Shown: piece by piece, positions 3,186-13,879 of the stretch
Position numbering within the stretch: the stretch's first letter is position 1
Layout of the letters: each line of letters begins with the position of its first letter
Assembly (NCBI GenBank): GCA_021399445.1
Contig: JAJTUQ010000001.1
Location: forward strand, 1,054,001-1,118,000
DNA length: 64,000 bases
From: Xylogone sp. PMI_703
Taxonomy: Eukaryota > Ascomycota > Leotiomycetes
Reading direction: 5' to 3'
Translations under genes and position numbers: made by a program
Notes under the pieces: generated by a model
What the model saw: the letters and a program-made list of their open reading frames with translations, nothing else
Told to the model about the DNA's origin: nothing
Database searches by the model: none

Positions 3186-6100
3186 TTACAATGGTTCCTG
3201 CTCTTCCTCTCCAACCTTTGGTGCTGGGACAAGTAACGTTTGCGGACTTCTAACCTTTATCTGTTGCTTAACCCACGCAATCATTCTTGTGATCTGCCCC
3301 GTACAGAAAGACACGACTTCAATAAAATCCTTGTCCCATAGCGCCTGACTTGCCGGAACTAGAGCTACAAAATGGCTCTCTACATGTGAAAGATACATGT
3401 AGAAACCTTGCATCGCAACAAGTATCTCATAAGGACTTGTGCTATTAAGACTATGATTGAGTATCGTGTCTTGGATAAGGTGAGAGATCTTTGAGTGGGA
3501 TTCGATGTTCGAGGAACAGTACTTGTCCACCATGGGCTTCAACCCGTCAGAAATAGATTCTGCAAGGCGACAGAGGACCCTGGTGCCGCTATGGATTTCG
3601 TGATCTTTGATAAAACGATCCGGTAGTGTGTGACATATTTTAAGCAAGGTAACTGTAGATTCGTATGTTGCTGAAATCCAGTATTCAACGTGGCGGACGC
3701 GTGGCTGACTAGCGTCGTGGATGGTATCGGCATCTGGCTTGCTTTGAGAGACTTTCTTTTCTATCAGTGTCTGTTGATGTTTGATATGGACTTTAACCTC
3801 GTCAGCTGTAAGTTTCTCAATTTTTACAGCCCCTGATTTAAACATTGGTTGTTTTGATATTGGGTCCCACTGCTCTATTATGGATCAATGTTAGTTAGCT
3901 GTTGGGGAATATATTGTGTTAGTTGATAAGTGCTTACCTTGAGTCAGTTTATTTGCCGCTCTGGCTCTCTCATCTTCCGAATCCCAGTATCTAGTAGAAT
4001 TTAGAAATACCTTGCCAAATCATCAAGGAATTGGGAGTCTTACCCAAAATGAAATGGAATGAATACTTGTCCCTTTGCAATCTGTCCTACTTTAACTGGA
4101 AGCTGAATTTGTCCCCTTCTAGAACTAATGGCAACTTCTTCACCATCTTTAATATCAAGTTCCTCTGCATCCCTCTCTGAGATCTGAATGAAAGGTTTGC
4201 CCCCAGCTTCGCGCAATTCGCGTACTCTTCCTGTTTTCGTCCTCGTATGAAAATGATATACCTGTCTGCCAGTCGAGAGCTGCAAAGGAAATTCCTCATC
4301 AGTCGCTTCAAGACTAGGTATATAATCTGCTGCTTTAAGGATCGCTCTGCCAGCTGGATTCATAGCTTGATACTGCTCTTTAGTAAATGGAGCTCCAGTC
4401 TCAAGGTCATGTCCAAAAGATTCACAATACTCTGTATCAGTGAAGAACTTGCCATCACTAAAGAGTCGTTCCGTGCCATAGGGGTTATCGGAGTTGCAAG
4501 GCCATTGAATACCAGACCCGCCAGTGAGTTTCTCATAACTCATTTCACTATAGTCACAAGGCCGCCCCTTACTCATCCGTCTCCACTCATTGAATGCTCC
4601 TTCTGGTTTGGTCCATGGCGTGAGAAGATTACCGTCTTTATCTCGGAAATCCATGCGACGACCAAAGTCGACGAATATGTCAAAATCAGCCCTTGCTTCT
4701 CCTGGAGGCTCAACGGCCTTATGTGAGATATGAGTGGTTCGGTCCACGTTCGTGAAGCACCCAGTCTTTTCACCCCACTGGGCAGCCGGGAGGACGACAT
4801 CTGCTATAGCAGCCGTTTCAGTAAGAAATGTATCTTGAACCACCACGAAGAGGTTGGGGTTTGTCAGCAGATCCCTTGTCCGAGGAAGGTTTGGTAACGA
4901 AACTAATGGATTCGTACCACTAATCCAAAACATCTGTATAGAGCCATTCTCAATATACTTCAACATATTTTGGATGTAAGTTGGTTCATTCCAGTGGGGC
5001 ACCTTTTCGGTTGGGATGTTCCAGACAGCGGCTATCTCCCGGATATGTTTCGGATTCATGTGGTTTCTAAACCCGGGGAATTCTCCATCACAGCCAGTTT
5101 CCCGATTATTTTGGGCAGTGGGTTGTCCATTCATTTGATAGATGCCACTTCCCGGTTTCCCAATAAGACCACGCAGGAGATTAATGTTGTTAATTTGACA
5201 GGCAGAAGCAGTTGCTTGATTTGATTGGTATACACCCTGCAGAGCCGTCGACAAGAGACTCTTGGCTGTGCCTATAATCTCGGCAGCTCTCTCCAATTGC
5301 ACAGCTGGGATTCCAGAGATAGATTCTACATATTTTGCGTTATACTTTTCAATTTTCTCTCTCAAGGTATCCAGTCCGATGGTATGCTCCTTCACCCACT
5401 CTTCGTTAGCCCACCCATTTTTAAACAGTAGATGTTGGATCCCATTAAGAACGGCCATATTAGTACCAATGCGAGGTGCCAGATGAACAGTAGCTTTCTT
5501 AGCGGTATCAGATATTCTCGGATCGACGACAACAACCTTCGGCGGGTCAGATCCAGCTAATCGGTCGAGCATGCGGGACCATAGAACTGTTTGGGTGGAT
5601 GCTATATTATTATGGCCGACAATGAAGATACAGTCCGTATAATCTATATCTGTGTATGACCCTGGCTGACCATCCGAGCCAAATGATTCTCGCATAGAGG
5701 TCGCAGCTGTTGCAGTGTACAACCGTGTATTCCCATCCCTATTTCTCACGATCAATTTTTCTGCTCATTATACATTCAAAGGGGTCAAACTATACATATT
5801 CAAGGTTTTCAGCCCTGCTTTTCCGATAACAGCCAAGGCATAATACTCTTCTAAGAATAACTGGCCTGTAGTATAAAATCCAATACCATGCGCAGTAAGT
5901 CGGCTCATCACGTCTGTTGCTTTGTTCACGATAAGTGACATAGCTTCATCCCAGGAAGCCCGTTCGAGCTTTCCATTTTTGCGAATGAGAGGATAATGGA
6001 GCCTCTCTTTACTCTTATTAGAGATCCAGCTGGATAATCATCAATTACCCCAATCTATATGGTTTAGGACTTCCACCTACGAATGTAATCCCTTAGGGCC

Positions 6101-6414
6101 CAGCCGTCCTTTATTAACTCGATCAGCAGCTCTACCTCTTATGCCAACTATTTTACCATCTTTAACGCCAATATCGCATCCGCATCCATTACTGCAACAC
6201 CGACAAGAAGCAGTATTAATAAAATTTTCGCGACTTAGAAGGTCATTACACAAACTTACCTGCACATAACGCAGGCACTTTGAACCCATCTATCTGCATC
6301 CTTAATCTGTTTTATGTCAACTCTAGTCGGCCACTCATATTTATATGGTGTTCTTTCGCCCCAAATATCCTTAATTGAATCACGCGACCCGTACGGCTGC
6401 TCCGGCGGATTCAT
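3186..6414 (-). CDS. prokaryote-type bis-MGD molybdopterin oxidoreductase (nitrate reductase/formate dehydrogenase superfamily)
   Basis: Six exons: 6414-6260, 6191-6081, 6029-5796, 5738-4044, 3990-3938, 3874-3186. All introns are 51-68 bases, GT-AG, and the joined frame is open for 978 aa. The N-terminus has an iron-sulfur motif CVMCSNGC (Cys48, 51, 55). The usual fourth Cys lies in a RLGPKG element as Gly83; Lys85 is kept. Next come FYTTGQLFLEEYY, the DGNTRL...FGSDGQPGSY active-site loop, molybdopterin-binding segments (GTNPLVSLP, ADVVLPAAQWGEKTGCFTN), a GGSGIQWPC element, and the C-terminal dinucleotide-binding domain (FPLQLSTGRQVYHFHTRT). About 220 helical residues follow. Residue 174 is Tyr where NapA/NasA/FDH relatives have the Mo-ligand Cys. 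Eukaryotic nitrate reductases belong to the unrelated sulfite-oxidase family, so bacterial origin is inferred. Substrate and electron donor are unknown; activity is doubtful. Confidence 0.9.
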
Positions 6415-6868
6415 AATTGCGAAAGCAGAGTTATACCTTAATTGTTTTTGAGGAATTTCGAAGTATCACCGTAACTGCCTTAATACATGAATACGCCTCA
6501 AACAAGCAGACTGTAAGGCCCTCGGAGATACCTCCTACAACCCCACTTAATTAGTGGTTGATATCTTGTTATATTTGTGATGTAACAGGCCTGGCCCCAT
6601 ACAAGACAGGAACTATGCAGGTTCAAGAGTATTCTTCAGGTAATAGTAACAAGGAGGAACAGGCTATTGCCAAAAACTAGTTGTTCATTGGTACAACCCA
6701 GAACGTTATGGCAGGCCTAGTGACTGACTTCGCGGTCTCCCCCTTCCGAATTCCACAGCGGGTGACTATGACCAACGGGACTATTTCTTGCCTTCTTTTG
6801 CATGTTAGAGGTATATAGTAGCCATGATCGCAATGTTAGGTATCCTTGAATAATCACACGTTGAATCT
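6415..6868. promoter_or_regulatory. divergent promoter between molybdo-oxidoreductase and moeA-like gene
   Basis: 454 bases separate the two divergent ATGs (6414 minus, 6869 plus). At 6520-6527 the sequence CCTCGGAG is the exact complement of CTCCGAGG, which fits the published NirA consensus CTCCGHGG for nitrate-induced genes in Aspergillus. A GATA core follows at 6527-6530, and another lies near 6563, as expected for AreA-type nitrogen control, though neither fits the full HGATAR form. A shared promoter suggests joint control of the enzyme and its cofactor gene. Function is inferred. Confidence 0.55.
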
Positions 6869-8386
6869 ATGTATCTGGACAGGTACACCTTACATTGCTT
6901 CGTGACTATGGAATGCAATATCTCATATGCATCTGCACTGTCCACCCTCCAAGCTACAGCTCATGAGTTTGCAAATCTCCAAACACACAAATACGAGGTG
7001 CTCCCAATTGTACAAGCGCTCGGGCAACTATCAGCAGACACGATCCGTTGCCCAATCTCAACACCTCGCTATAGCACTTCAGCGGTGGATGGATACGCGG
7101 TTCAGTCTTCCCTAACAAGAGAGGCCTCGGCTGAAAATCCATTGACGTTAAAAGTAATCGGGACTATTGCAGCCGGCCAAGTTCCCATATCAGTTTCTAT
7201 TGATGACCAACAAGATGAATCTATCCCATGTGTGGAGATCATGACGGGTGCTCGATTCCCCATTCCAGCAATCTTATCCTTATTATCACCTAAACGGCAA
7301 ATAGATGAATTTGACGCGTCTATAAAGGTAGAAGAGACAGTAGAAGTAAACGGTGCAGATGGTAATGCAAAATATATCCAAATTAAAAAACCTGCTCGAC
7401 GGGGCCAAAATTGGAGACCATCGGGAAATGATTTCAGAGAAGGAAAAGACATTGTTTTGAACAAAGGAGAGAGAATAACTCCTACTCACGTTATGGCTCT
7501 TGCATCGCTAGGGATTGGCGAGATTGCAGTGCAATCTAAACTCAAGGTAACCGTGGTATCTACGGGGCTCGAGATGTTGGAACATGATACGAAAGAGATG
7601 TGTAAGCAAGACGGCAAATGGGTGAGAGATTGCAACGGGCCGTACATCGAAGCCTTCTTGAACCACTTAGGTGTTGATGCAAGGAGGGAAGGCATTATAC
7701 GCGATGATCCTGAGGAGTTTCAGGAGAGGATACTATCAATGTTACATGGCGACTTTTGCGATATTATTATCTGTACCGGCGCGGTATCGATGGGCAAATT
7801 TGATTTCGTGCGATCATCAATTGAGCATCTCGGAGCAAAAATCCAATTCCATAAAGTTGCAATCCGTCCCGGTCATCCTATATTATTTGCAACATTACCT
7901 ACAGAAAGGCGAGCATCATTGGAGGAATATGTGAATGGGTGCACGCGCCAAGCTACAGCTATAAGCACTCCGAATAGTGGTAGTTATTCCCGAAAGAAGG
8001 AAGTAGCATTTTTCAGACTACCTGGGAATCCTATTGCTGCTGCTGTCTGTTTAAGATTTCTTGTTGTTCCATACCTTCGAGCGCTTGGTTCAGACAATAT
8101 GGCCGAAGTACCAAAAGAAGCTGTTGTGAACAGTGCCTTACAAGCATGTAATGGCAATCCAATGGGTTTGTCCAAACCGGCTCACCTTCAGACGTTTTGG
8201 CATGGAAAGCGTTCCTCAGACGGAAAAGTTGTTATTTCAAAGGAGCAAGGATCAAGTCAAATAAGACCGCTACTAGATGCAAACTGTTGGATTAGTATTC
8301 CTCCGGGAGAGGTGGGAGTTCGACATGGTGATAAAGTGCAATCATTTGAGATGTATCCTTTATCATTGAGCTCAGATAAATCATAA
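6869..8386 (+). CDS. MoeA/gephyrin-E-like molybdopterin molybdotransferase, stand-alone
   Basis: Single open frame of 505 aa; the ATG at 6908 (MECNISYASAL) is an equally likely start. MoeA inserts molybdate into adenylylated molybdopterin. Motifs in order: TSAVDGYA (consensus nSaMDGYA) near residue 71, EIMTGARFP, RRGQNWRPSGNDFREG, VVSTGLEML (consensus STGDEL, Asp replaced by Leu), ICTGAVSMGKFDFV, FHKVAIRPGHPILFA, and RLPGNPIAAAVCLRFLVVPYLR. There is no MogA domain, unlike the fused fungal CnxE/gephyrin that normally serves the housekeeping route. It therefore looks like a second, dedicated copy. It is divergent from the bis-MGD oxidoreductase and convergent with the mobA relic, 63 bases away stop to stop. 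Unlike mobA it has no break. Confidence 0.88.
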   Translation: MYLDRYTLHCFVTMECNISYASALSTLQATAHEFANLQTHKYEVLPIVQALGQLSADTIRCPISTPRYSTSAVDGYAVQSSLTREASAENPLTLKVIGTIAAGQVPISVSIDDQQDESIPCVEIMTGARFPIPAILSLLSPKRQIDEFDASIKVEETVEVNGADGNAKYIQIKKPARRGQNWRPSGNDFREGKDIVLNKGERITPTHVMALASLGIGEIAVQSKLKVTVVSTGLEMLEHDTKEMCKQDGKWVRDCNGPYIEAFLNHLGVDARREGIIRDDPEEFQERILSMLHGDFCDIIICTGAVSMGKFDFVRSSIEHLGAKIQFHKVAIRPGHPILFATLPTERRASLEEYVNGCTRQATAISTPNSGSYSRKKEVAFFRLPGNPIAAAVCLRFLVVPYLRALGSDNMAEVPKEAVVNSALQACNGNPMGLSKPAHLQTFWHGKRSSDGKVVISKEQGSSQIRPLLDANCWISIPPGEVGVRHGDKVQSFEMYPLSLSSDKS

Positions 8387-8404
8387 TAATAATTATTATT
8401 ATTA
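8385..8404. repeat. palindromic ATA/TAT microsatellite at gene end
   Basis: Immediately after the moeA stop the sequence is a perfect 20-base self-complementary run of ATA units meeting TAT units. It sits between two convergent 3' ends and could fold in either transcript, as a weak processing signal or simply as a slippage product. Confidence 0.6.
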
Positions 8405-8449
8405 TCGTAGTGCTTTTGTGCTATACAGTACAATAAATACGTATTATCT

Positions 8450-9171
8450 CTATGGTGCCACTTTCTTTTCTTCTAACCATTCCTTCCAGATTAACATAGC
8501 TTCTTCCCATTCTTCTTTTGTGTTCGCTGCTTTGATCCATACCTCTTCGACAGCCACCAATTGAGTGCCATTCATCTGTTTAATGACATTCACTAGCCCA
8601 CTCTTCCCCTTGCTACATTATACTTCAGCTGTTTTAAACTTTCCGGGCTCCAAATAGCTATCAATGGTTCGGGAAAGCCTTCATGATTAACAAAACAGGT
8701 AACAGGGGGTACGTAATCAGATAGAAGTTGGTGAATAGCAGCAACTGGAAGAAGTGGATAGTCACAAGCTATTACTAGCTATGGGACATTTGGAAATAAA
8801 GCATGTGCTGCTAATAAGCCAGCTGCGGGGCTGATATCATCTCCGCCGTCAAAGACAGTTTCAAGTTTGCCAAGGGAGTCTGGCTCGTCCAAATTATATC
8901 CTTTCAAGGAACCGAGTTCCTGGCCTGGTTTTGTCGTTCTTAGTCGTTTTCCTAACATTTTCTCCATTTCTTAGAGCTGTGCCTTGTCCTTGAGAGAGAT
9001 ATAAATTCTATCTACTGCAGGTATCGCAGATCGTAGTGTGCCAATAGCGTGCTCAAAGGCAGGTCGACCATCAGGGAACGGAAGGAGTGCTTTAGGTGAT
9101 CCCATGCGAGAGGATTGGCCTCCCATTAAAAGAAGAACTCTAAGGTCTGATCCCGTCATATCCCTTCGCAT
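8450..9171 (-). pseudogene. mobA-like molybdenum cofactor guanylyltransferase, inactivated
   Basis: From the ATG at 9171 the product begins with the MobA nucleotide-binding signature LLLMGGQSSRMGSPKALLPF, followed by DRIYISLKDKAQL and a TAA stop at 8973-8971. The same frame continues with MEKMLGKRL...GGDDISPAAGLLAAHALFPNVP, then a TAG at 8781-8779 where MobA has a Trp, then LVIACDYPLLP and PEPLIAIWSPESLKQL. At about 8605-8620 the frame breaks: the tail (KSGLVNVIKQMNG to KEWLEEKKVAP) reads in the next frame and ends at 8450. Two stops plus a frameshift in about 240 codons make a working protein unlikely, and none falls in a plausible intron. MobA adds GMP to Mo-molybdopterin to form bis-MGD. 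It has no role in the canonical eukaryotic Mo pathway, so its place beside a bis-MGD enzyme is significant. Confidence 0.85.
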
Positions 9172-9654: not shown

Positions 9655-12600
9655 CTACCACGCAATCTTTGCAATCGGCCCTTTTGGCCACTGCCTCACG
9701 ATCAGCTTCCTTATCTCATCCATCAGCAGTATTCCAAGAGCAAGTGGCAACGGAAGAAGCCAAAATTCAATTGGTGCACTTGCTGTTCCAAAGATTGACT
9801 GAATGCCAGGTTCCTCCGTGACGAACACAGCAATAGCCAAGCTGACAACTACACTCGCAATTAACCAAGGGTTCCTTCTTTGCTTCCGTATGGGATCAGC
9901 TTGAAGAATCGATAACCGCTTATTACGAATACTAAGAATATTTCCCCACTGTAGAATCACAAGAGTTATAAAATAGACGCTCTGCCCGACCGTATTGAAG
10001 TGGGTGAGTTGTTCTTGCGTGTACCCGTAAAAACCGTCGGAGTACTTCTCAAAAGCAAATACTAGTGCATGGAAAGGGATACCCGCGTGCCTATACATGT
10101 ATAAAAAGAACATGGAATGCGCGCACAGAGTCTCCATAACACCGATAAAAAGGTAACTCTGTATATATAATCTGAGGGTAATCAGATGGTCTTTCTTGTG
10201 ATTGCGTGGGGGTAGAGTAAGTAAATCGAACTCTTCTTTCTCCATGATCAAGGAAAGTGACAGAAACAGGTCCGTAAACACACAAATAATGATCATCAGA
10301 AAAGATGAAAGTGGAAGCGGAACCCCGAAATAGACATTCATTAACACTGGCCATATTTCCGACCAAGATCCAGCGGGTAGCAGATAGCCTATAACCTTTT
10401 GCAAATTTTGGAAGACGAGTCGTCCAAGTCTGATAGCTTCAATAATTGCATCAAACTTGCCGAGGAGCACAAGGTCAGCAGCCTCAAGTGCAACGTCGCT
10501 GCCAGTACTAATGGCAATACCAACATCTGCGGCACGGAGGGCAGGGGCATCATTCACGCCATCTCCTGTGACGGCCACCGCATTATCACGAGATCTGAGC
10601 TCCTTCACAATACGTAGTTTCTGTTCAGGACTAGTACGTGCAAAGACAATTTCTTCATAGCCGCAGACAATATCCCAGTCGTCCTCATCCAGCTTCGAAA
10701 TGTCGGGTCCCTCAAGAAGTAGACTTGTCTGTTCACGATCACCAGTAGCACTCAGCTCTTTCCCTTCACTGCGCCCAGAGTTTTGCTGATTTTTTATTGA
10801 ATCAATTGTATCGGGAGTGGAGGTAGTAGAGCTGAATATACCGATATCATGAGCAATAGCCGCAGCAGTGAGGCCAAAGTCACCAGTTACCATAAAGAAA
10901 CGAACCCCAGCTCGACGGCAGGAGGCGACCGTCGAAGCGGCTTCTTTTCGCGGGGGATCTATAATGCCAAGGACTCCGATGATTGTCAGGTTATCAATAC
11001 TGTTCTGAATCTCATCCGCAAAAGCGTTGGACCCGGGAGCTGAGCTTGGAGTAATCTGCCGTTGGCAGAGCAAAATCACACGCTCTGCACTCCTTGACAG
11101 ATTTTTTTGAAGTGTGATAAATCGAGCCTTCGCCTCATGATTCAGATCCATGACCGTGTTATGCTCGAATGACCAGTAGGTTGTGCAGGATGGTAGAAGG
11201 ACATCGGGAGCTCCTTTAACTAACATGAGGAACTGCATTTTTTCAGAGAGGTGTCCAGTAGACATGTCGTTATGTTTATGTAATGTTAGCATCCATTTAT
11301 TTTTCGAGTTGAAAGGTATTTGAAAAACTGTAGGATGTTGATCCTTTATGAGAACATCGACTCCATCCTGAGCGGCTGCTGCAAATTTTAGAATTGCACC
11401 ATCGGTGGCATTCCCTTGGATGTCTCGATCCATCACTGCACAACCTATAGATAAAGCATCGAAGTTCGCATCATTACACAAGATCGATGCTTGATGGAGC
11501 TCTGTGAATGCCAATGATTCACTATGAGCAAATATTTTGTAGGCTTCCTCAACTGTCATCTGCTTATCCAGAAAGCCCACCGTCCTAACAACCATCTTGT
11601 TTTCAGTCAAGGTTCCCGTTTTGTCTGAACATATAATATTCACACATCCCAAAGTCTCAACCGTTGACAATCCTTTAGGAAGGATATTGTTCGTCTTCAT
11701 CCTGGTGGCAATGACCATCAGTGTCAGAGCCACACCAACAGGCATCCCCTCTGGAATAAAAGCAACAACACAACCCATAACATCGTCTAGCATTGCAATA
11801 ACGTTCATGAACTGGAAATGGTCAACTCTCAGCCATCCAACCCAGGTGAGCAGTATAGCCAAGGCGAGAATAACAGTAAGAACAACAATAATTGTAACAA
11901 AGCGACTAATCTCTCGTTGGATAAGAGTCGGCTGATCTTTAACAGAGTGAGTAGTCCCGGCAATCTGACCCATAACTGTATTTCCTCCGGTGAGAACGAC
12001 AATACCTCTGGCGCTTCCATTCGTAACCATAGTACCCATCAGTGCGATATTCCGAGTTTCGAGATAGTTGTTGTCTGTCATATCAATGGATCCTTCAATT
12101 TCGTCAGACTCTCCAGTGAGCATTGACCGATCGAATCTGACATCCCCGGAGCTGCTCAAAAGGCGAATATCCGCAGGTACTTTGTCTCCAATCCCAATCT
12201 TGACGATATCACCGACGACGAGATCAGTTGAGGAGACTTTCATGGTCTCGCCATTCCGAGTAACCAAAGCTTCAGCAGGTAAAAGATCCAGTATAGCGTT
12301 CATTGTCCGAGCCGTAGACCAGTCCTGAAATGCAGAGAAGCATGCTTGTAGAAATATAACGATAAGAACCAGAATTGCCAAGCCAAGGTTGTAGGGAGCT
12401 GGATTCGGGTCACCCAGCGGGCGCCAGCATATGAAGAAGATTATTACTCCAATCCATAGCACGGAACAGAACCCACCAAAGACGTAAAAAAATATCTTTT
12501 TCGCATAGTTCTGACGGCGGTGTTGGAAGGAGTTCTTTCCATCACGAGCAAGTCGAGACGCAGCTTCATCAATTCCAAGACCCTTTTCTGAGATGACATT

Positions 12601-12972
12601 GAGTTCAAGGCAAAGTTGGCTTGGGTCTAGAAGATGAAACTTAATATTGGCAAAATAATCTTGATTTTCATGCTCTTTATCCCCTTTTTTCTTCCGCTTT
12701 GACTCTTTTGTTCTCTTATCCTTGACATCCTGAATACCTTGAGACTCCGAGACCTCGAAAGATAACGTGCGGAATCCTATCGGAAGACCAGAGATTGATT
12801 GCGTTCTAGCTCGTGAGCTGGATCGAGAATCACTACTAGCAGGTCTGTGTCTGCTCTCACTTCGACGGCGTCGCTGGTTGGGATGCTCGCTAGATTCGAA
12901 TATGATGCGTTGCGGAATAGGGGTTTCCTTGATCTCTGCATCCCGGTCTGTTTCGTTCGACGTGGCCTGCAT
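9655..12972 (-). CDS. P-type cation ATPase, type IIC (Na+/K+-ATPase alpha-like)
   Basis: Single exon of 1105 aa starting at the ATG 12972 (MQATSNETDRD); the frame also extends to an upstream TTG. A basic N-terminal tail of about 100 residues precedes a cation-ATPase N domain, actuator motif LTGES (near residue 288), the transmembrane PEGMPVGVALTLM element, the phosphorylation motif ICSDKTGTLTENK (Asp450), the nucleotide domain, and the hinge motif TGDGVNDAPALRAADVGIAI. Six C-terminal helices follow. This architecture matches animal-type Na+/K+ and H+/K+ pumps, which occur patchily in fungi. Most fungi use ENA (type IID) for Na+ export. The transported ion cannot be fixed from sequence. No beta-subunit gene is visible in the window. 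A NHA1 antiporter and a HAL4/5-type kinase lie within 8 kb. Confidence 0.92.
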   Translation of the reverse strand: MQATSNETDRDAEIKETPIPQRIIFESSEHPNQRRRRSESRHRPASSDSRSSSRARTQSISGLPIGFRTLSFEVSESQGIQDVKDKRTKESKRKKKGDKEHENQDYFANIKFHLLDPSQLCLELNVISEKGLGIDEAASRLARDGKNSFQHRRQNYAKKIFFYVFGGFCSVLWIGVIIFFICWRPLGDPNPAPYNLGLAILVLIVIFLQACFSAFQDWSTARTMNAILDLLPAEALVTRNGETMKVSSTDLVVGDIVKIGIGDKVPADIRLLSSSGDVRFDRSMLTGESDEIEGSIDMTDNNYLETRNIALMGTMVTNGSARGIVVLTGGNTVMGQIAGTTHSVKDQPTLIQREISRFVTIIVVLTVILALAILLTWVGWLRVDHFQFMNVIAMLDDVMGCVVAFIPEGMPVGVALTLMVIATRMKTNNILPKGLSTVETLGCVNIICSDKTGTLTENKMVVRTVGFLDKQMTVEEAYKIFAHSESLAFTELHQASILCNDANFDALSIGCAVMDRDIQGNATDGAILKFAAAAQDGVDVLIKDQHPTVFQIPFNSKNKWMLTLHKHNDMSTGHLSEKMQFLMLVKGAPDVLLPSCTTYWSFEHNTVMDLNHEAKARFITLQKNLSRSAERVILLCQRQITPSSAPGSNAFADEIQNSIDNLTIIGVLGIIDPPRKEAASTVASCRRAGVRFFMVTGDFGLTAAAIAHDIGIFSSTTSTPDTIDSIKNQQNSGRSEGKELSATGDREQTSLLLEGPDISKLDEDDWDIVCGYEEIVFARTSPEQKLRIVKELRSRDNAVAVTGDGVNDAPALRAADVGIAISTGSDVALEAADLVLLGKFDAIIEAIRLGRLVFQNLQKVIGYLLPAGSWSEIWPVLMNVYFGVPLPLSSFLMIIICVFTDLFLSLSLIMEKEEFDLLTLPPRNHKKDHLITLRLYIQSYLFIGVMETLCAHSMFFLYMYRHAGIPFHALVFAFEKYSDGFYGYTQEQLTHFNTVGQSVYFITLVILQWGNILSIRNKRLSILQADPIRKQRRNPWLIASVVVSLAIAVFVTEEPGIQSIFGTASAPIEFWLLPLPLALGILLMDEIRKLIVRQWPKGPIAKIAW

Positions 12973-13879
12973 TTTGTGAGATCCGAGTGCCAACTTGGTT
13001 CTAGAAAGAATGAGAATGGGCCAGAATTCGCCATGTATAAAGAGAAGATCAAAGGCTTTGTATATAGTTAAATAAAGGGGCCATGAAAATATGCGGTTTA
13101 GCTGGCTAAGTAGGAGAATTTCGGCAGTTGCATTCCATTACATATCAGAAACATGATAGTTAAATTTTATGTCCCGGGACTACACTCCAACCTAGATGTA
13201 ATCGCCTACTGAGTGATGCACTATCCAGAGAAAACAGTAAAAGGTGGACCTACTGTAGCAACAAAGTACAACTATGAGATCAGTGAACTGTTACGTAAAT
13301 TTATTGAAGGCATACTTGGTCTCTAGTAGCAGTGTCCTTTTGGTTACGCACGAGATGAGGCATTTTCGCCATGGCTACCTGACCTGGGTCAGCATTCTCA
13401 GGGTAGAAACGATAGCCCCCAGTTTACACAACTACGTCGACAATACAGATTCGTATGGAACTGTATATTCTGAAAAGAACGGTAATCAAAATACGCAAAT
13501 TGCTGCAGTATACATCAAGTTAATAGGTATTGGATAATAGATAATCGCTACGCGCCGAATGACGTGCTTTCCTTTACATTCATATCCATATGGTTGTGAT
13601 CTATGTGCCGGTCTATACACTTTAAGAACCATTAACAATTAAGGCAGTATATCCTTCTACAAAGCAGTTATAATATAACTAATGCTTCAACTTATAGAGT
13701 TGATACGGTAATTGTGTAGGTCATTCCTACGATATCTTTCATTGTTTGTAATTTACCCATCCTGAATAACTCTGTGTCACATCCATCAGGACACCCACTA
13801 TATAGATCATTACTCTTTGAACATGTAGTGTCCTTGAACGCGGTTCTCATCCATTTTCAACCGCCAGAGATATAGCAAC
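12973..13879. other. intergenic
   Basis: Promoter side of the ATPase gene plus 3' flank of the RING gene. Open frames here are short and show no domain features. Confidence 0.5.

Follow-up and report, generated by a model that had tools for sequence, protein, structure and literature searches.

Does a fungus make and use bis-molybdopterin guanine dinucleotide (bis-MGD), and does Xylogone sp. PMI_703 still do so? The question is raised by three genes within 6 kb (positions 3186-9171) of a stretch of 64,000 nucleotides from this fungus (contig JAJTUQ010000001.1, positions 1,054,001 to 1,118,000), here called the window: an oxidoreductase of the dimethyl sulfoxide (DMSO) reductase family, a MoeA-type molybdotransferase and the relic of a MobA-type guanylyltransferase, together the island. 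An earlier interpretation of the letters alone (the sequence-only reading) had taken them for a linked molybdoenzyme set; all three genes lie where it had placed them, and coordinates, Pfam domains and homologues agree with it. We consider it quite likely that a bacterial-derived set, which looks intact in most carriers, has been inactivated in the window. The features that bear on this are:

3186..6414, minus strand: oxidoreductase gene, NapA/NasA/formate dehydrogenase (FDH)-like, DMSO reductase family (homologues; Pfam architecture of the deposited protein P0001)
5717..5719, minus strand: codon of Tyr174, in the column of the molybdenum-ligand cysteine (NapA ligand column in a profile alignment)
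6120..6273, edges approximate, minus strand: N-terminal iron-sulphur motif CxxCxxxC, interrupted by intron 1 (6259-6192)
3189..3874, minus strand: last exon, the distal part of which encodes a C-terminal helical domain
6908..8386, plus strand: stand-alone MoeA-type molybdotransferase gene, 492 amino acids in one open frame
8450..9171, minus strand: MobA-type guanylyltransferase pseudogene (stops, frame change, Pfam match)

The best protein matches had E values of about 0 for the oxidoreductase, 1e-63 for MobA and, the window's own entry excluded, 3e-165 for MoeA, thus the gene identities are not a matter of chance. Here and below, the lists of protein matches hold the best 120 of 7493 (oxidoreductase), 173 (MobA) and 7914 (MoeA). 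The oxidoreductase is encoded by six exons (6414-6260, 6191-6081, 6029-5796, 5738-4044, 3990-3938 and 3874-3189, stop codon at 3188-3186) with five GT-AG introns between them, each 51-68 nt long; the predicted product has 978 amino acids. All five exon junctions lie within family-conserved sequence in the alignment to homologues, which supports the exon model and makes the five introns proposed earlier credible on grounds of homology. P0001, the protein deposited for Xylogone sp. PMI_703, departs from our translation at 12 positions only, around intron 3: at window 5717-5795 its gene model splices the region of intron 3 by two introns, which remove DGNTRLY and neighbouring residues. Both splicings leave no cysteine ligand. 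Membership in the DMSO reductase (MopB) family follows from the domains Molybdop_Fe4S4, Molybdopterin and Molydop_binding, which were above the Pfam cut-off in P0001, from the same gene, and in P0002.

Enzymes of the DMSO reductase family bind molybdenum through Cys, Sec, Ser or Asp. Part of this list is given in the accessible text of PMC10100899. The ligand column held Cys in all 115 matches with a letter there (5 of the 120 were gapped); the window copy has Tyr174, none of the family ligands. This replacement had escaped the sequence-only reading. The 120 protein matches were chosen independently of the patterns DGNTRLCT and NGQPT[AS]QN, by which our bacterial loci were picked; the ligand count in the bacterial rows is therefore biased to Cys, and the Arg seen there in 5 of 74 rows was taken for wrong frames from the picking of open reading frames (ORFs). 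The oxidoreductase of the sister copy, P0105, begins past the ligand site and is uninformative at this position.

The second lesion lies in MobA. Two in-frame stops, at 8973-8971 and at 8781-8779, interrupt the reading frame, which also shifts between 8617 and 8596; when the stops are written as X, NTP_transf_3 still matches the relic above cut-off (E 5e-22). Intact fungal relatives were matched best by the NCBIfam MobA models (E 4e-22 and 2e-22) and more weakly by MocA, all below the cut-offs, and they fall among MobA-like rows in the tree. No other NTP_transf_3 match was found in the genome by the six-frame, exon-by-exon search used for all genome searches, which a divergent or much-split guanylyltransferase could escape. 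The MobA (P0121) and MoeA (P0242) of the sister have open frames and the same contig size as the sister oxidoreductase, thus the loss of MobA would postdate the split from the sister. The window MoeA carries MoeA_N, MoCF_biosynth and MoeA_C in one frame, all above the Pfam cut-off, which places it in its family; the NCBIfam MoeA models match below cut-off. MoeA_N gave 2 matches in the genome, Oxidored_molyb 3 matches and MoCoBD_1 3 places, so the ordinary molybdenum cofactor (Moco) enzymes remain. A second bis-MGD enzyme was considered and rejected: the remaining PF00384 match has its highest score with NuoG.

The canonical fungal Moco pathway, with its CnxE-type MoeA, makes the molybdenum-molybdopterin (Mo-MPT) precursor, and its enzyme genes are present in the genome. 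It serves the nitrate reductase, sulfite oxidase and xanthine oxidase families; unlike the island it needs no MobA and feeds no bis-MGD enzyme, as the sequence-only reading had held and as stated in the accessible part of PMC9370521. An intact island would work on top of this pathway. In our proposal, a fungus acquired from bacteria a one-subunit enzyme of the DMSO reductase family together with MoeA and MobA. The ordinary pathway would supply the precursor, the island MoeA would finish Mo-MPT by inserting molybdenum, and MobA would add guanosine monophosphate, giving molybdopterin guanine dinucleotide (MGD) and finally bis-MGD. Molybdenum would be held in the enzyme by two MGD and one cysteine, and electrons would enter via the N-terminal iron-sulphur site, which keeps three of four cysteines; the whole would act as a cytoplasmic analogue of NapA/NasA. 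In the window fungus, with MobA a pseudogene without a replacement found and Tyr in place of the ligand, the enzyme would be cofactor-free and inactive. Loss of MobA should leave the enzyme without MGD, and loss of the cysteine should leave it without the usual ligand; either loss would make the other harmless. The joint loss of metal ligand and MobA is what a mutual dependence of the two genes predicts, and the window may serve as its natural test. The island in the window is probably decaying, and a working set is improbable. Gene structure, homology, linkage, clades and lesions come straight from the computation; cofactor, substrate, electron donor, the single transfer and the order of the losses are inferred.

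The iron-sulphur site of the family is unusual. Gly (GRLGPKG, about 6105-6085) stands where the superfamily has its fourth cysteine; this column has Gly in 97 of the 100 oxidoreductase matches with a letter and Cys in none, which suggests a three-cysteine iron-sulphur site in the intact enzymes. Six environmental relatives (P0057, P0058, P0075, P0082, P0083 and P0097) have GRLGCKG, whose cysteine, one residue past the lost fourth ligand, may be a ligand regained. Among the bacterial rows with a letter, 45 of 73 have the three cysteines, and about 23 carry His and Asp in place of the second and third; part of the bacterial family may have lost the cluster entirely. At the other end of the protein, the Pfam scan of the oxidoreductase gave no match over 3189-3872, and a predicted model of a stand-alone bacterial version folds the C-terminal helical domain as a ferritin-like bundle.

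What would the intact enzyme reduce? Among the closest known systems is the NapA of Desulfovibrio desulfuricans (PDB 2nap, 2jio), from which the island family differs by the Gly for the fourth iron-sulphur cysteine and an extra C-terminal helical domain, the window copy in addition by the Tyr ligand. The NapA models of NCBIfam remained below their cut-offs (304-328 bits against 930.55; 320-343 against 904), and the four cysteines of the NapA 4Fe-4S site are incomplete. With NasA, NasC and NarB the island enzyme shares the family and the single catalytic subunit. The NasC model reached E 1.7e-114 and 6.4e-122 but 384-408 bits where the cut-off is 1100, the haloarchaeal NasA model 320-370 bits against 1000, and the assimilatory nitrate reductases form a separate branch in the tree. 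HPP proteins are encoded beside the oxidoreductase in 11 of 80 bacterial loci and SLAC1 proteins in 7 of 80 (Pfam checked on one member each). Both families have members that transport nitrite or nitrate. The NapA-type residues and these bacterial neighbours make nitrate or a similar oxyanion the most likely substrate, and the intact enzyme most probably a one-subunit reductase of the NapA/NasA type.

The chance that the intact enzyme uses formate instead, or some oxyanion different from nitrate, is somewhat less than even. Several observations count for such a substrate and against nitrate: FDH alpha scored highest of the NCBIfam models (459 and 499 bits, short of the cut-off of 666), FDH folds tie with NapA in the fold comparison, and in Mycobacterium smegmatis the two further putative nitrate reductases MSMEG_2237 and MSMEG_6816, whose membership in the island family is not established, are dispensable for nitrate use according to the accessible text of PMC7816997. 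The active site speaks rather against formate. We compared the two positions that mark formate dehydrogenases, a His after the Cys or Sec ligand and an RGQN motif with the substrate Arg. In the island family the ligand is followed by Thr in 115 of the 116 matches with a letter, the exception being the misaligned P0001, and NGQP stands for RGQN in 120 of 120; the HPP and SLAC1 neighbours likewise argue for nitrate or nitrite.

The island is no peculiarity of one genome, as it had at first appeared. Among the matches listed, relatives of the oxidoreductase occur in many ascomycetes, some basidiomycetes and one chytrid; the named fungi include Pezizomycotina, Saitoella, Filobasidium, Naganishia, Crassisporium and Rhizophlyctis (54-69 % identity). 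The first match in this list with a bacterial source name was P0111 from a Rhodospirillales metagenome-assembled genome (MAG), with 53 %. Linkage of the genes in other fungi was deduced from exact contig sizes common to matches in the three lists (120 + 120 + 120 proteins). Twenty-eight contig sizes were common to two or three gene types, about 0.7 being expected by chance for the 360 listed proteins: 13 combined oxidoreductase and MoeA (one of them the window's own contig), 10 MobA and MoeA, 3 MobA and oxidoreductase, and 2 all three. Locus tags concur in Trapelia (MMC30_005159/005160/005161), Fusarium sarcochroum (FSARC_9541/9539) and Thermocarpiscus (VTK56DRAFT_6062/6060). The three island genes travel together in fungi, and contig sizes and locus tags thus support the linkage in further ascomycetes for which the sequence-only reading had proposed to look. 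In Monosporascus, P0073 (1241 amino acids) joins oxidoreductase and MoeA domains, either as a true fusion or as a gene model spanning two neighbours.

Trees unite the fungal copies of each gene, with 99-100 % bootstrap, and place them beside bacterial proteins. The oxidoreductase tree held 83 rows, 25 of named fungi, 7 environmental, 48 bacterial or presumed bacterial (one of them labelled as an archaeal MAG) and 3 of the outgroup. Its 32 fungal-type rows form one clade (support 100/100) nested in the bacterial family and sister to P0106 and the locus L009 (96/95). L009 is a 4555-base contig of a Methanomicrobiales MAG, the archaeal label of which may be a binning error on a short contig. The 22 fungal island rows of the MoeA tree form one clade (100/100), sister (100/98) to two MoeA of the genome that contains locus L003; the fungus's own CnxE-like MoeA falls outside. 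The 17 fungal MobA rows form one clade (99/97), to which two Bacteroidota rows attach first (100/99) and the L003 genome next (94/79). A deep eukaryotic phylogeny with no bacterial affinity, which would have spoken against a transfer, was seen in none of the three trees.

L003 is a contig of a Deltaproteobacteria MAG (JACQAW010000098.1, 1-14209), found among the best 80 of at least 579 stretches related by the two patterns; six of the 80 gave no usable target frame. Like the island, it unites an oxidoreductase relative, MoeA and MobA. Its oxidoreductase and HPP genes are divergent from the cofactor genes, which comprise MoaA, MoaC-MoCF, a MOT1-like gene, MoeA and MobA, a compact set for one molybdoenzyme; the additional genes and the orientation and divergence of MobA distinguish it from the island. 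Together with the trees, this makes a ready-made set in the donor plausible. From the single fungal clade of each gene, the L003 trio and the sister position of the L003 MoeA, the island trio looks like a single old transfer from bacteria. The sequence-only reading had proposed a prokaryotic-type enzyme that came with, or recruited, its cofactor genes; the transfer is supported, and of the two routes joint arrival fits better than recruitment. Two results sit less well with a single transfer: the nearest bacterium differs between the MobA and MoeA trees, and only L003 among the 80 loci showed cofactor-gene neighbours. MoeA was found in L003 only, and a fungal MobA profile gave no match in the ORFs of the 80 loci, a search too strict that also missed the L003 MobA, which was found by a Pfam search of its contig.

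Repeated transfer from fungus to fungus, in place of descent from one ancient acquisition, is rather unlikely. It would explain why basidiomycete and chytrid names are few in the listed matches, why the chytrid is grouped with an agaric (97/88) and why Tremellomycetes stand near ascomycetes, all of which tell against simple descent; so does the record of Xylogone sp. PMI_703, a mycoparasite that ranks among the ten genomes with the most transferred genes in the accessible text of PMC11708051. One clade per gene disfavours multiple bacterial donors for these rows, and within Pezizomycotina a number of class-level groups stay together. The main text of that study contains neither 'molybd' nor 'nitrate reductase'; its Table S2 may include the island genes.

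How firmly can the lesions be taken as decay? Against a loss of function stand the open 978-codon frame of the oxidoreductase and its conservation. Of 98 columns that show no variation in 93 other rows, the window keeps 97, the ligand column being the exception; the other rows, treated alike, deviate at 0 to 4 of these columns, thus the number of window departures is ordinary and their place is not. Well-conserved sites gave no sign of a faster evolution of the window copies (10 changes against 9, 11 against 9 and 7 against 8, in total 28 in the window and 26 in the sister). These results would also suit a window oxidoreductase selected as a metal-free protein, its losses being adaptation; NDUFS1/NuoG, a complex I subunit from this superfamily, likewise functions with no molybdenum site. 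A recent loss, however, accounts equally well for the intact frame, MobA is broken in several ways, and at outgroup-invariant sites 11 departures in the window alone stand against 3 in the sister alone, a weak signal that hints at relaxed constraint in the window copy; we regard a metal-free function as improbable. That the lesions are assembly errors in a functional island is very improbable: the lesions comprise one missense change, two stops and one frame change in a single assembly, and P0001 derives from the same gene, but four independent faults would have to fall in two functionally coupled genes and none in MoeA or the remainder of the oxidoreductase, and base substitutions are presumably rare errors in an assembly of 25 contigs. 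We therefore hold to the loss of a working set. Likely, many fungi make bis-MGD via bacterial-derived MoeA and MobA and employ it in a NapA-like enzyme of one subunit, which the window lineage has just lost.

In the literature, dinucleotide cofactors are treated as prokaryotic. The accessible part of PMC9370521 restricts them to prokaryotes and gives the MobAB of E. coli no counterpart in plants, fungi and humans; the DMSO reductase family is called exclusive to prokaryotes in the parts available of PMC10609526 and PMC4633490. To the contrary, PMC6650914 broadly places the family in 'all domains of life', its accessible text naming no eukaryotic member. A large molybdenum survey queried eukaryotes with sulfite oxidase, xanthine oxidase and mARC proteins only (PMC6147048, accessible text), and a 2023 survey of the superfamily covers bacteria and archaea, with eukaryotes considered for mitochondrial respiratory chains only and 'fungi' or 'fungal' absent from its accessible text (PMC10100899). 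No report of a fungal MobA or a fungal bis-MGD enzyme was found in open-access literature without supplements, a search that left most subscription journals outside. Database entries already label single fungal proteins 'nitrate reductase' or 'bis-MGD-type'. The sequences are thus catalogued and the bacterial enzyme type is known; new are the linked, widespread presence with MobA in fungi and the loss in this lineage. Should the fungal sets be functional, the prokaryote-only statements would have to be revised, fungi would possess, for nitrate or a similar substrate, a second route of bacterial type, and the bis-MGD enzyme would add a class to the molybdenum enzymes of eukaryotes.

The surroundings of the island are fungal on both sides, as had been noted from the letters:

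9655-13137: P-type ATPase ORF, fungal neighbour of the island
1407-2432: SLAC1-family anion-channel ORF, neighbour on the other side

The island sits on a 9.1-Mb contig of a 50.1-Mb genome in 25 contigs, and the GC content is even across the window. With the introns and the fungal flanks, these data led us to reject a chimeric or contaminant contig, which the sequence-only reading had named as a possible objection. The SLAC1 neighbour was also rejected as a functional partner. The window ORF resembles the bacterial neighbour tested only weakly (25.8 bits), and SLAC1 matches occur at about 5 other places in the genome; chance adjacency is thus preferred.

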